DNA of 60,680 nucleotides. Origin: Persephonella sp. Lineage in GTDB: Bacteria; Aquificota; Aquificia; Aquificales; Hydrogenothermaceae. This document shows positions 32,013 through 38,245 of this stretch, piece after piece (the stretch's first letter is position 1; every line of letters starts with the position of its first letter). The stretch lies in contig NZ_JALVTW010000038.1 in the NCBI RefSeq assembly GCF_027023985.1, positions 1 through 60,680 on the forward strand, read 5' to 3'. The notes beneath the pieces are model-generated. The model worked only from the letters and a program-made list of their open reading frames with translations, did not search any database and was not told the origin of the DNA. The translations under genes were made by a program, and so were the position numbers.

Positions 32013-32681
32013 ATGAAAATTCAAATAACGGAAAATGGTCCTTATATTGTCTCAGGGAATATCCCGCTTTTCCGGGAAATAATGGTCAAATACAAAATGA
32101 CCATACCGCAGGAATGGAAAAAGGTTCAGGAGTTTCAGGTAAAAGGAAAATATGCATTGTGTAGATGTGGAATGTCAAAAAACAAACCATTCTGCGATGG
32201 CTCTCACAAAGCCGGATTTGATGGAGAGGAAACAGCAGAAAATGTTCCTTATGCTGAATTAGCAAAAGTTTATTCAGGGAAAAACTTTAATTTGCTTGAT
32301 AACAAACCTTTATGTTCTTCTGCAAGATTTTGTTTAAAAGGAAAAGGTATATGGGAACATATTAAAGAAGTGAAAGCTATAGATGAGATAAAGGGAGAAG
32401 TATGGAACTGTCCCTCAGGCAGACTGGTTCTTACCGATAAAGAGGGAAACCCTATAGAACCAGAGTTTCCTAAAGAAATAAGCATATTAGAAGACAATCT
32501 TGCAGGAGTAAGTGGACCTATCTGGGTAAAAGGGGGAATTCCTATAGAATCTTCAAAAGGAACTATTTATGAGATCAGAAACAGGGTAACCCTTTGTAGA
32601 TGTGGGAAATCTGCCAACAAACCCTTTTGTGACGGCACCCACATCAAAATAAAATTCAAAGATAAAAATTTTAAACTTTAA
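32013..32681 (+). CDS. Iron-sulfur protein with two CDGSH domains
   Basis: A 222-residue protein with two CDGSH zinc-finger-like [2Fe-2S] sites: CRCGMSKNKPFCDGSHKAGF near residue 50 and CRCGKSANKPFCDGTHIKIKF near the C-terminus, each with the 3Cys-1His pattern. The middle part (PLCSSARFCLKGKGIWEHIK, VWNCPSGRLVL) matches the Cys-containing divergent CDGSH-associated domain found in bacterial fusions. The N-terminus (ITENGPYIVSGNIPLF) is the usual beta entry. The biochemical role of bacterial CDGSH proteins is mostly redox or cluster transfer and is not known here. Confidence 0.88.
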   Translation: MKIQITENGPYIVSGNIPLFREIMVKYKMTIPQEWKKVQEFQVKGKYALCRCGMSKNKPFCDGSHKAGFDGEETAENVPYAELAKVYSGKNFNLLDNKPLCSSARFCLKGKGIWEHIKEVKAIDEIKGEVWNCPSGRLVLTDKEGNPIEPEFPKEISILEDNLAGVSGPIWVKGGIPIESSKGTIYEIRNRVTLCRCGKSANKPFCDGTHIKIKFKDKNFKL

Positions 32682-34457
32682 TTAGCTAATTTTTCTGTTT
32701 AGAAGTATTCTACCTGCGAATAACAGGAATAATAGCATCATCCATTCAAAATATGTGTAATTTCCGGTAGTATCCATTGAACAACCTCCACTACCTCCAC
32801 CGCCGGTATCAGTTTTAGGTGAATATACTGAACCTGAAAGTTTAATTTTTATGGTGTTATATTTAGTGTTTGTTTCTATATTCAGGTAATCTGAAAAATT
32901 CCCTTCTTCATTAGATTTAAAAGAAAGCCTTATTTCACAAATTTGTCCAAAATTAAAAGATCCTCCAGAGCAAGTTTCTCCAGTTATTTTGAATTTAGAA
33001 TTTTTATCAAGATATACATTACCTATATCTAAGGCACCTGTTCCTGTGCTTTTTATTTTGAATGAAAATTCTTTAGTATTTCCTGTCTCTATTGAACCAA
33101 CTTTGTAGTAGAAATTCTGATTATCCTGGGTGATAGGTTTATTTATGCAGATTTTAGGAAGATTATCAGGAGAGGAAACGGCTTTGTATGCATTAAGTCT
33201 GTTACAGGATGCAGAATAACCTGAAAGTGATAACAGATTATCCCCTGAAGCTATAACTTTTTTAATCAGCTCTGCATTTGAACTTGAGGTGGAATCTATT
33301 GATTTGAGTAAAGATAAAACTCCTGCAACCTGAGGTGCAGCCTGGGAAGTTCCAACAAAGCCTGCATAATCATTTGTGTCATCACCGTCATTAGTATATT
33401 TATACAGATTAAGAATAAGTTGATTACTATTTACTTCTCCTCCTGGAGCAAAAATATTTACTGTAGACACCCCGTAATTTGAAAAAGAGGATATATTGTC
33501 ATACCTATCTACTGAACCAACGCATATAACATTATCAAGGACAACAGAATAATTACATGGTAAGAAATTATTTATATCATTATTAGAGGTATAGTTTCCT
33601 GCAGCTGCAACAAAAATTGCTCCTATATCCTGAATAAGGCATTTTTCTGTATCAGGATACTGAGTGCAATCTACATTTAAAGTTTGATCAGCAGGGGCAG
33701 TATAACCGTAACTTCCGTTTATTACAGCGATATCCAAACCTTTTTGGTTTTTTAAGGATTTTATATACTCAAGACATTCAATAAGGTCGTTTACATCTCC
33801 TGAACCATTCGCCATAAATCTACAAGGTATTATTTTTACATTCCAGTTTATTCCTGCTACGCCAATACCATTGTTTGTTGTGGCACCTATTATCCCTGCA
33901 ACATTTGTCCCGTGACCATCATAGTCCATAGCACTCCCTTTTCCCGTAATTGCATCATATCCGTAACAATCATCTATGTAGCCGTTACCATCGTCATCCT
34001 CGCCATCACTACAATTTGCATCATCTCCTTTACGCTCATCTTCATTAACCCAGATATTAGCCTTTATATCAGGATGGGTGTAATCAACTCCTGTATCAAT
34101 TACAGCAACATATACAGTATTTAAACCAGTAGTTATATCCCAAGCATTTTCCATATCTATATTTTTCAAATACCATTGTTGCGGATATAAAGGGTCATTA
34201 GGAATAGCCTGTGGGTAAACCTTATAATTTGGTAGGACATAGGCAATATCAGGATCTTTTTGTAGCTCTTTTATAAACTCGGATAATTTTTTTCCATTAG
34301 GAACTTTAAGAACAATTCTGTTTTTATGTTTTTTAACTACTGACTGGGTAGTAATAGAAGAAGGTTTAATACCATTCTTTAGAAAAACGATAACTTCTTG
34401 AGAATGGCTTTGATATAAAAATCCCATTAAAAAAAATAATAAAAATACCCTTTTCAT
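32682..34457 (-). CDS. Secreted subtilisin-like (S8) serine protease with C-terminal Gly-Cys-TM-basic sorting tail
   Basis: A 591-residue secreted protease. Signal peptide residues 1-19 (MKRVFLLFFLMGFLYQSHS); an I9-like propeptide to about residue 90. Catalytic triad: Asp121 (VAVIDTGVDYTHPD), His182 (DYDGHGTNVAGIIG) and Ser371 (FVGTSQAAPQVAGV). The segment GDDANCSDGEDDDGNGYIDD looks like a calcium loop. Residues 450-545 form a beta-rich domain of the choice-of-anchor D type. The end is GGGGSGGCSMD, a hydrophobic helix WMMLLFLLFAGRILL and NRKIS: the tripartite layout of Cys-containing C-terminal sorting signals. A CPBP protease is divergent 28 bases away. Confidence 0.9.
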   Translation of the reverse strand: MKRVFLLFFLMGFLYQSHSQEVIVFLKNGIKPSSITTQSVVKKHKNRIVLKVPNGKKLSEFIKELQKDPDIAYVLPNYKVYPQAIPNDPLYPQQWYLKNIDMENAWDITTGLNTVYVAVIDTGVDYTHPDIKANIWVNEDERKGDDANCSDGEDDDGNGYIDDCYGYDAITGKGSAMDYDGHGTNVAGIIGATTNNGIGVAGINWNVKIIPCRFMANGSGDVNDLIECLEYIKSLKNQKGLDIAVINGSYGYTAPADQTLNVDCTQYPDTEKCLIQDIGAIFVAAAGNYTSNNDINNFLPCNYSVVLDNVICVGSVDRYDNISSFSNYGVSTVNIFAPGGEVNSNQLILNLYKYTNDGDDTNDYAGFVGTSQAAPQVAGVLSLLKSIDSTSSSNAELIKKVIASGDNLLSLSGYSASCNRLNAYKAVSSPDNLPKICINKPITQDNQNFYYKVGSIETGNTKEFSFKIKSTGTGALDIGNVYLDKNSKFKITGETCSGGSFNFGQICEIRLSFKSNEEGNFSDYLNIETNTKYNTIKIKLSGSVYSPKTDTGGGGSGGCSMDTTGNYTYFEWMMLLFLLFAGRILLNRKIS

Positions 34458-34485
34458 TAAAATTTCCTCCGTTTAAAATTAAAGG

Positions 34486-35010
34486 ATGAAACAGGTAGCT
34501 TTATTATACTTTCTTCTTATTATATCGGTATTACTGTCTAAATTTTTCGTTTTTCTCTCTTTTTTACAGTTTTTGATATTAATCTTGCCCCTTTTATTAC
34601 TTGACGAAAGATATTTAGGCCTGAGAAATTTCAAGGCTGTTTTTATAGGGTTTTTGAGTTCTGCTGTTTATTTACCATTTATAAATTTTTCAAATCTATA
34701 TCTCCACACTTTACCACAAGTATTTGCAGAAGAAGTATTTTTCAGAGCTTTTTTGCAGAATAAACTTGCAGAAAAATTAAATATACATCTATCTATAATT
34801 CTAACCTCTATACTTTTTGCTATTCCTCACATTATTCTGCGACCTGACATATTTTCTGCACTTACATTTTTTCCGTCTATTTTATTTGGATATCTGTATT
34901 ACTATACGAAATCCGTCTGGAGCAGCACTTTATTCCATTATTTTTCCAACCTGTTTTTATGGAGCAATCAGGAGCGCATATTTGATATAATAAAAGTTTG
35001 TATTTTCTAA
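34486..35010 (+). CDS. CPBP-family intramembrane glutamic protease
   Basis: A 174-residue membrane protein with about five helices and the CPBP/Abi motifs: EEVFFRAFLQNKL (EExxxR), FAIPHII (FxxxH) and LFHYFSNLF (HxxxN), which place the catalytic Glu and His inside the membrane. Family members include CAAX proteases, bacteriocin-maturation proteases and myxosortase-type C-terminal sorting enzymes. It is unusually short and is divergent from the subtilase with a Cys-containing sorting tail, so I infer that it processes that tail. Start ATG at 34486; no strong ribosome site is seen upstream. Confidence 0.8.
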   Translation: MKQVALLYFLLIISVLLSKFFVFLSFLQFLILILPLLLLDERYLGLRNFKAVFIGFLSSAVYLPFINFSNLYLHTLPQVFAEEVFFRAFLQNKLAEKLNIHLSIILTSILFAIPHIILRPDIFSALTFFPSILFGYLYYYTKSVWSSTLFHYFSNLFLWSNQERIFDIIKVCIF

Positions 35011-35033: not shown

Positions 35034-36410
35034 ATGAGCGTTACAGTTGAAGAAAAAGGACTTGTAAGAACTCTTACAATTGAAGAAAAAGGAGACAAAA
35101 TTAAAAAATTAGTTGATAGCGTCATAAAAGAGTTCCAAAAAAATGTTAATATCCCCGGATTTAGAAAAGGACATGTTCCTGCATCAGTAATTAAGGCAAG
35201 ATACAAATCTGCACTTCAGGAAGAAGTTGCAAGAAAGTTTATCGGGGAAAATCTCCAGAAAATTCTGGAGGAACAAAATCTGCAACCTGTTTCACAGGAT
35301 ATAACATTTGGAGATATAGAGCTAAAAGGGGATACTCTAAAATTCAAAGTTGCCTTTGAAGTAGCCCCTGAATTTGAACTCAAGCCTTACGAAGGATTAA
35401 CAATTGAAACTATAAAACATGAAATCACAGATGAGGATGTCCAAAACTACATAGACAAGCTTAGAGATGAAAACGCAGAATGGGAAGTTACAGACAAGAA
35501 AGTTGAAGAAGGTGATATGGTAAAAATCCATTACCATATAATTGCAGATAACGGAGAAGAGGAAGAGGATGAACTTGAGGTTGTAATTGGAGCAGGACAG
35601 CTTAGACCTGAGATAGAAGAAAAAATCATAGGTAAAAAGGCAGGGGAAGAAATAGAGGTTGAGGATGTTCCACTTTACAACGAGCAGGGAGAGGAATTTG
35701 GCAAGGCTAAAGTTAATGTAAAAATCCTTGAGGTCAAGAAGAAAAAACTACCAAAATTTGATGATGAGTTCGTTAAAAAATTAGGTCTTGGCGAAAATGT
35801 TGAAGAAGCTAAACAAAAAATAAAAGAACAAATAGAAAATCAGGTAAAAATTGCAAAAGAAGCCGAACTGCAGCAAAAAATAATTGATGAACTAGCTAAA
35901 CAGTATGATTTTGAAGTTCCATCTTCACTGGTAAGAGCAGAACTGGAATATCTGGTTCAGGATTACGCAAGACAGCTTGAAAATTACGGAATCAAACCAA
36001 GCCAGGAAATGCTCGCTGCAGCAGCACAGGGACTTGAAGAGACAGCAATTAAGAATGTCAGAGTTATGTTTGTTATAAACAAAATAGCAGAAAAAGAAGG
36101 TATAGAAGTTTCTGAGGAAGAGGTTAACAAAGAAATTGAAGAAATGGCAAAAGCTTACAACACAACACCTGAACAGGTTAGAAAATATCTTGAAGAAAAT
36201 AATCTTATGAATAATATCGTTTACTCAATTCTCAGGAAAAAAGTCCTTGACCTTTTAAAAGAAAAGGCTAATATTATCGAAATGACAAAAGAAGAATACG
36301 AAGAAAAAATGAAACAACAGCAACAGGAAGAAAAAGCCGAAGAAACCCAAGAAGAGCAAAGAGAAGAATCTTCTAAGGAAAAAAAGGAGGAAGTAGATGA
36401 GCAAAAATGA
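35034..36410 (+). CDS. tig: Trigger factor
   Basis: A ribosome-bound chaperone and peptidyl-prolyl isomerase of 458 residues. The N-terminal ribosome-docking signature is [13 protein letters not shown]; the FKBP domain lies at about 155-240 ([46 protein letters not shown]), and the helical C-domain is 250-430. The tail is a Gln/Glu/Lys-rich stretch ([18 protein letters not shown]). It overlaps clpP by 14 bases, giving the tig-clpP-clpX protein-quality operon. Confidence 0.97.
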
Positions 36411-37008
36411 TTTAGATAGAATCGTAAGCCAGTTAGTTCCAATAGTTATTGAGCAAACCCCAAGGGGTGAAAGGGCTTACGATATATATTCAAGACTTTT
36501 AAAAGACAGGATTATCCTGCTTGGATTTCCTATAGATGACCATGTGGCAAACCTTGTGGTCGCACAGCTGTTATTCCTTGAATCTGAAGACCCGGACAAA
36601 GATATATATATGTATATAAACTCCCCCGGTGGTGTTGTTACTGCTGGGCTTGCTATTTATGACACTATGAACTATATCAAGCCGGATGTGTGCACAATCT
36701 GTATGGGGCAAGCGGCATCAATGGGAGCTTTTCTGCTTTCTGCAGGAACAAAAGGCAAAAGATATGCCCTCCCAAGTTCCAGAATTATGATACACCAGCC
36801 ACTTGGTGGATTTCAGGGACAGGCTACAGATATTGAGATACATGCAAGAGAGATACTTAGGCTGAAAAAAATGCTTAATGAATACCTTGCAAAACATACA
36901 GGACAAAGCATAAAGAAAATTGAAAAAGACACAGAAAGGGACTATTTTATGTCTGCATACGAGGCCAAAGAATACGGCCTGATAGACAAAGTAATAGAAA
37001 AAAGGTAG
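36397..37008 (+). CDS. clpP: ATP-dependent Clp protease proteolytic subunit
   Basis: ClpP forms the tetradecameric serine protease chamber. The catalytic Ser is in [14 protein letters not shown], His in [10 protein letters not shown] and Asp in [16 protein letters not shown] marks the axial loop. The 203 residues begin [15 protein letters not shown] with the processed N-terminus preceding [22 protein letters not shown]. It is coupled to tig and followed 7 bases later by clpX. Confidence 0.97.
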
Positions 37009-37015
37009 GTAAAGT

Positions 37016-38245
37016 ATGAGCGAACTGCATAAATGTTCATTCTGTGGCAAATCACAGGATGAAGTAAAGGTTTTGGTTGCGGGGCCTGATAATATCTTTA
37101 TATGTGATGATTGTATAAACCAGTGTAATCTGCTTTTAAAAGAAGAACTGGAAAATAAACCTGTAGAAGAGCTTAAAGAACTTCCTACACCTGCAGAAAT
37201 TAAGAAAAAACTTGATGAGTATGTAATAGGGCAGGAAAGGGCTAAAAAAATATTATCTGTTGCAGTTTATAACCACTACAAAAGGATTTTTTACCCTGAG
37301 AAATACTCAGACGACGACGTTGAACTGGAAAAAAGTAATATTTTGCTAATAGGACCTACAGGTTCAGGTAAAACCCTGCTTGCCAGAACACTGGCAAAGA
37401 TACTTAATGTTCCTTTTGCAATAGCAGATGCAACAAACATAACAGAAGCCGGATATGTTGGAGAAGATGTAGAAAGTATACTTGTGAGATTATTACAGGC
37501 TGCAGATTATGATATAGAAAAAGCACAAAAGGGAATTGTTTATATAGATGAGATAGACAAAATAGCCAAAAAATCCGGTGAAAATCCATCTATAACAAGG
37601 GATGTTTCCGGAGAAGGTGTTCAGCAGGCATTACTTAAAATCTTAGAAGGAACTATTGCGAACCTTCCACCACAAGGTGGTAGAAAGCATCCCCATCAGG
37701 AGTTTATTCAGCTTGACACAACAAATATACTTTTTATCCTCGGTGGAGCTTTTGTAGGCCTTGAGGATATTATAAAACAGAGAATTGGTAAAAAATCCAT
37801 TGGATTTGCTGCAGAAATCAGGTCAAAAGAAGAGGAAGAAGGAAATATTCTTTCAAAAGTAAGGGTTGAAGATCTTATTAAATTCGGTTTGATCCCTGAA
37901 TTTATAGGAAGAATACCTGTAATTGCCACATTGGAAGAACTTGATGAAGATGCACTGGTAAGGGTTCTTACAGAACCAAAGAATGCACTTATCAAGCAGT
38001 ATAAAAAACTACTTGCAATGGATGGCGTTGAGCTTGAGTTTACAGAAGATGCAATCAGAGAAATAGCAAGGGAAGCTATTGCCAGAAAAACCGGTGCCAG
38101 AGGTTTAAGGGCAATAGTAGAAGAAATTATGCTTGATGTTATGTATGAAGTCCCTCAGGCAAAAGGTGTTAAAAAAGTAGTAATAGATAAAGATGTTGTC
38201 CTGAAGAAAAAACAGCCAATTTTGATATACGAAAAAGCAAGTTAA
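37016..38245 (+). CDS. clpX: ATP-dependent Clp protease ATP-binding subunit ClpX
   Basis: The AAA+ unfoldase for ClpP, 409 residues. An N-terminal zinc-binding domain ([19 protein letters not shown]) precedes Walker [19 protein letters not shown], Walker [13 protein letters not shown], pore loop [10 protein letters not shown], ClpP-binding loop region IGFAA, sensor segments and the small domain [14 protein letters not shown]. It follows clpP and is followed after one base by engB. Confidence 0.97.

Follow-up and report, generated by a model that had tools for sequence, protein, structure and literature searches.

The locus

In the window, the whole 60,680-nucleotide stretch of Persephonella sp. 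DNA that we analysed, a secreted subtilase and a CPBP glutamic intramembrane protease are encoded divergently on opposite strands (Table 1). The first-pass annotation described this arrangement with a gap of 28 bases, and on re-reading the coordinates we find exactly that distance between the two start codons. It also named the subtilase as the only neighbour of the CPBP gene, which is incorrect: trigger factor starts 23 bases downstream of CPBP on the same strand, and CPBP heads a row of trigger factor, clpP and clpX (tig-clpP-clpX; window positions 35034-38245). On the other side, a gene for a CDGSH iron-sulfur protein with two zf-CDGSH stretches and a Fer4_19 domain (window positions 32013-32681) is convergent with the subtilase gene, and its end directly abuts the subtilase stop codon.

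Table 1. Position of the genes, motifs and predicted sites of the subtilase-CPBP locus within the window.
Feature	Position	Strand	Basis or remark
Secreted subtilase, 591 aa	32682..34457	-	ORF and domain profiles
Putative C-terminal sorting tail, aa 552-591: GGGGSGG-Cys559-SMD, hydrophobic helix, basic end	32685..32804	-	
Cys559 codon, predicted lipidation and cleavage site	32781..32783	-	Cys invariant in 81 aligned proteins
Divergent intergenic gap, 28 bases	34458..34485	.	Between the two start codons
CPBP glutamic intramembrane protease, 174 aa, myxosortase-like	34486..35010	+	
EEVFFR (E82, E83, R87)	34729..34746	+	Catalytic Glu motif EExxxR
His115 in FAIPH	34828..34830	+	Predicted catalytic His
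FFPS, aa 128-131	34867..34878	+	Motif common to MrtX/MrtJ-type proteins
HYFSN (H151, N155)	34936..34950	+	HxxxN oxyanion motif

The subtilase begins with a signal-peptide-like segment, followed by an S8 catalytic domain (aa 114-401; Peptidase_S8 match of 153 bits) and an Ig-like/DUF1573-like domain (aa 451-544) that scores slightly below the Pfam cut-offs. Its last residues, 552-591, are GGGGSGGCSMDTTGNYTYFEWMMLLFLLFAGRILLNRKIS, and the GGGGSGGC end with a hydrophobic helix and a basic end behind it is present in the sequence as originally described. A scan of the whole genome with the tail profile returned the subtilase as the sole match (E<=10), and a genome profile search for PF02517 in the 1.9-Mb genome returned the CPBP protein of the window and no other.

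A pattern scan for GGGxC found no second helix-bearing tail in this genome; its sole find was a rhodanese-like protein (L094, on contig G000:C32 near 36615, minus strand) that has an N-terminal helix and ends in GGGGGCL-stop, with no helix after it. The gene lies directly upstream of one for a putative twin-arginine, Mo-oxidoreductase-like protein; both names come from our own reading of the sequences. This GGGGGCL end is perhaps a sulfur-carrying swinging arm, by analogy with the GGCGG of SoxY.

The tail belongs to a family with an invariant cysteine

We built a profile from tails near CPBP genes and searched it across 112 Aquificales genomes, where more than 100 proteins match the form G(n)-C-[S/N]…helix…RR with an invariant Cys. 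Because the first tails were collected beside CPBP genes, divergent tails elsewhere may be missed, as the example of G067 (below) illustrates. Among 104 tails read, all have the Cys, 103 have Gly before it, and the next residue is Ser in 71 or Asn in 25; the distance from Cys to the end is mostly 21-36 residues, with a basic cluster at the close. When 81 tail-bearing proteins, otherwise unrelated, were aligned whole, the sole invariant column was this Cys. Pfam identifies 33 of the tail proteins as subtilases and others as SBBP beta-propellers, PKD, Ig-like or beta-helix proteins, all of them exported types. Within the subtilase family, the Cys tail persists from genus to genus, also in members whose Gly run has weakened, and it is absent from some subtilase paralogues in genus g3. 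In other Aquificales, a genome may encode as many as eight proteins with the tail alongside one CPBP, mostly unlinked.

The tail of the window passes none of the curated cut-offs for sorting signals. The closest model is JDVT-CTERM (NF033191), whose match is weak, at 17.4 bits for the full protein and 23.7 for the tail alone against a cut-off of 27; MYXO-CTERM (TIGR03901; cut-off 20 bits) gave no match at E<=1, and Synerg-CTERM (TIGR04564) gave no match to this tail. Among 80 tails, Synerg-CTERM matches 31 and GlyGly-CTERM 2, both weakly, and MYXO-CTERM matches 29; two other Aquificales tails pass the MYXO-CTERM cut-off, at 25.5 and 24.6 bits.

The CPBP protein is related to myxosortases

The 174-residue CPBP protein has each of the motifs first read in it, EEVFFR, FAIPH and HYFSN, and matches PF02517 at 64.9 bits (gathering cut-off 22.4). 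Residues E82, E83, R87, H115, H151 and N155 are invariant among 65 aligned CPBP proteins. Its nearest named record is a protein from a Persephonella MAG, 78% identical. In the predicted structure (pLDDT 96), the conserved motifs lie within membrane helices, and the best solved match is Rce1 (4cad), with a probability of 0.97-0.99 for the best three chains, TM 0.54-0.57 and E 0.1-0.4.

All 61 Aquificales CPBPs searched match the NCBIfam models MrtS, MrtP, Mrt_core, MrtC and MrtJ (best E on Mrt_core, 4.4e-20). For the enzyme of the window the best model is MrtS (NF040589), at 73.3 bits with a cut-off of 130; it scores 64.2 on Mrt_core (NF040914; cut-off 100) and 57.6 on MrtJ (NF033192; cut-off 75). 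With every cut-off missed, we rejected its assignment as a curated member of MrtJ, MrtS, MrtX, MrtC or MrtP, and the best E-values suggest that the other 60 proteins are likewise below the Mrt cut-offs. When relatives from other phyla were included in a tree, the Aquificota CPBPs formed one clade (99/88) and CPBPs lacking FFPS another (98/93). The FFPS motif is common to Aquificales CPBPs, Myxococcota enzymes and one Thiodiazotropha protein, which passes the MrtJ cut-off (97 vs 75). Since the relatives were partly recruited by a pattern containing FFPS, its absence elsewhere is established for the seven generic CPBPs in the tree only.

These results bear on whether the pair is simply a known system, MrtJ/JDVT-CTERM or MrtS/Synerg-CTERM, carried into Aquificota. 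The two-gene layout resembles that of MrtJ/JDVT (PMC11980579), the best enzyme model is MrtS, and the tail weakly matches JDVT-CTERM; however, enzyme and tail both miss the NCBIfam cut-offs, by which the system is neither MrtJ/JDVT-CTERM nor another curated type. Moreover, the Aquificota enzymes make up a separate clade that is found throughout the order, a distribution that favours old vertical descent. We therefore regard a known system carried in from elsewhere as unlikely.

Planctomycetota relatives of the CPBP enzyme adjoin proteins with GGCSM-, GGCSVS- or GGGGGCAIS-helix-basic tails at four loci (L250, L251, L259 and L278). Of these enzymes, the three that were scanned reach 75-82 on Mrt_core (cut-off 100), and the scanned tails are likewise below curated cut-offs. 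It is possible that these pairs are a further undescribed sorting system.

Enzyme, tail and type II secretion occur together

Of the 112 Aquificales genomes, 76 have CPBP and 72 have the tail. Both are present in 65, CPBP only in 11, the tail only in 7 and neither in 29 (p=1.3e-11, with no full species-tree correction). The corresponding counts for genomes at least 90% complete are 49, 8, 2 and 16, and when the tail was permuted within genera the observed value was reached in 0 of 20,000 permutations. The co-occurrence in relatives that the first-pass annotation proposed to examine is thus present, also within genera. Of the two patterns it named as speaking against its reading, a tail with no link to this CPBP family is contradicted by these genomes, and members of the CPBP clade lacking a tail do occur, in a minority.

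The occurrence of CPBP and that of the tail likewise follow GspD, the secretin of type II secretion (T2SS); we scored GspD as present by hand, from matches over the curated cut-off together with strong partial or near-cut-off matches. For GspD and the tail, the 112 genomes divide into 67 with both, 15 with GspD only, 5 with the tail only and 25 with neither (p=4e-10, again with no full species-tree correction). Judged from the secretin alone, the genome of the window has a T2SS: its GspD, at G000:C29, scores 455.8 bits (cut-off 351). In a Sulfurihydrogenibium-like genus (g9), GspD passes the cut-off only in G101 and G102, and the tail is found only there too. In genus g14, four of five genomes have GspD and none of the five has CPBP or the tail, which shows that GspD alone does not bring the tail.

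The exceptions to the association run in both directions. CPBP is kept with no tail detected and no GspD over the cut-off in G036, G097, G099 and G100, where it may have a second role; G018 and G068 are among a few others with CPBP and no tail, yet with GspD over the cut-off. Some of the genomes scored as having CPBP only are profile misses, given that the subtilase of G067, scored in this way, does end in GGCSF-helix-basic. Conversely, G046 and G074 are near-complete drafts with clear tails and no CPBP, which could be due to loss, an assembly gap or another enzyme. No CPBP of another kind was found in the tail-only genomes G046, G074, G055, G073 and G017.

Genomic linkage points the same way. 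A tail gene lies within 6 kb of a CPBP locus in 10 of 60 cases, with about 1 expected, and these come from five genera; in most Aquificales, CPBP is unlinked to tail genes. The two genes are transcribed away from each other in Persephonella and towards each other in G104, and in six genomes gspD is 1-4 kb from tail-bearing subtilases. The same divergent subtilase-CPBP pair is present in three further genomes of the same genus (L032-L034), and no Cys-helix-basic tail was found in 1.2 of the 1.64 Mb of the related genome G097, scanned as a chance control with the profile and with a loose rule. Together, the kept pair and this tail-free scan indicate that the pairing is not chance.

We consider it quite unlikely that the tail is a plain C-terminal membrane anchor and that CPBP, in an unrelated role such as regulated proteolysis, immunity or an Abi-type function, is its neighbour by chance. 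Such a reading would account for the CPBP genes retained in some genomes without tails or GspD and for the position of CPBP in front of tig-clpP-clpX, which are quality-control genes. However, it does not sit well with the strong co-occurrence of CPBP and tail, within genera too, with an adjacency far above chance in two orientations, or with the FFPS/Mrt type of the enzyme, and a simple anchor has no need of an invariant Cys behind a Gly run. Very improbable is a sorting signal processed by another protease, for example the single rhomboid in the manner of rhombosortase/GlyGly-CTERM: although the genome encodes a rhomboid and the tail is Gly-rich and T2SS-linked as in GlyGly-CTERM, a rhomboid is equally present in the tail-less G087 and G097 and was not found in the tail-bearing G073, the GlyGly-CTERM model matches far fewer tails than Synerg-CTERM or MYXO-CTERM, and the tails have an invariant Cys. 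Two candidates for the processing enzyme were discarded, rhomboids for occurring irrespective of the tail and exosortases for their absence from the 10 genomes examined.

A proposed sorting pathway

Because co-occurrence, adjacency, enzyme relationship and tail anatomy agree, a sorting pair is well supported, and we think it highly probable that the subtilase and CPBP are an Aquificales system for C-terminal sorting of the myxosortase type. The idea of a dedicated sorting pair therefore stands as far as a myxosortase-type pair is concerned, and fails as a general rule of one client per enzyme: one enzyme and one substrate is what we see in this genome and some close relatives, and elsewhere the tails are more numerous.

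Our model builds on what we observe in the anatomy, in the joint occurrence of the enzyme with the tail and GspD, in genomic linkage and in the enzyme's kinship and fold, and takes lipidation, the position of cleavage and surface anchoring by inference from MrtX of Myxococcus xanthus (PMC11980579). In M. xanthus, MYXO-CTERM proteins lose their C-terminal end through MrtX in a reaction that depends on the Cys, and MrtX also cleaves MYXO-CTERM in E. coli (PMC11980579). By analogy, the subtilase would be exported by Sec, and its C-terminal helix would hold it in the inner membrane so that the basic end faces the cytoplasm while the Gly-rich stretch and Cys559 lie at the outer face. Cys559 would then receive a lipid, perhaps from a general enzyme like Lgt, and CPBP, through its EExxxR, His and HxxxN motifs, would cut just after Cys559, most likely once it is lipidated, freeing the helix. 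The T2SS would then carry the lipid-anchored subtilase to the surface.

More specifically, we give about an even chance to a hitherto undescribed branch of Cys-dependent C-terminal sorting peculiar to Aquificales. Its stand-alone enzyme of ~150-185 aa would act with a G(n)C[SN] tail and be linked to the T2SS, it would have been inherited from early in the history of the order, and lineages without the T2SS would have retained the enzyme for a different task. If such a branch is real, C-terminal lipid anchoring would be old and widespread in diderm bacteria; the enzyme-tail neighbourhood recurs in the Planctomycetota relatives. Our reading proposes a function for a CPBP clade of most Aquificales and for more than 100 proteins with the tail, most of them exported, and would account for the way in which these thermophiles keep extracellular proteases on the cell; the order-wide association of enzyme, tail and T2SS points to an uncharacterised way of fixing proteins to the cell surface. 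With their small genomes and minimal enzyme, and with only one client in some species, Aquificales would allow the pathway (lipid, acyltransferase and cleavage site) to be resolved by means of two genes in E. coli. Myxosortase activity was first shown recently (2025, PMC11980579), and our literature search found no description of such a system in Aquificae or Persephonella.

Comparison with known systems

Of the systems compared, the rhombosortase/GlyGly-CTERM system of Vibrio shares a Gly-rich tail, helix and basic end on T2SS-exported proteases (PMC11980579); however, its enzyme has another fold and its tail lacks the invariant Cys. Rce1 of Methanococcus maripaludis (PDB 4cad), a type II CAAX protease, is similar to the enzyme of the window in fold and catalytic motifs, but overall similarity is low (TM 0.52-0.57), and it acts on prenylated CAAX ends (PMC11980579). 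MrtS/Synerg-CTERM (NF040589/TIGR04564) provides the top enzyme model and weak matches to many Aquificales tails, yet the enzyme falls short of its cut-off and the tail of the window is without a Synerg-CTERM match.

MrtJ/JDVT-CTERM is a two-gene system of beta- and gammaproteobacteria, as PMC11980579 describes it after Haft 2024. It has a small enzyme beside a single target, a layout shared by the window and L032-L034. In contrast, the pair of the window is under both cut-offs and its enzyme is on a separate branch of the tree, and most Aquificales enzymes are unlinked and several genomes have several targets.

There is a close likeness to MrtX/MYXO-CTERM of M. xanthus (PMC11980579), where a CPBP enzyme with EExxxR, His and HxxxN serves exported clients whose tail consists of a Cys motif, a helix and a basic end. 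That system is likewise linked to the T2SS, and FFPS is found in the Myxococcota relatives. MrtX is larger, at 239 aa vs 174 aa, and M. xanthus has 35 MYXO-CTERM proteins where the genome of the window has one tail protein (PMC11980579). We regard the pair of the window as a minimal member of an order-wide system of the myxosortase/Cys-CTERM kind that most likely acts as MrtX does.
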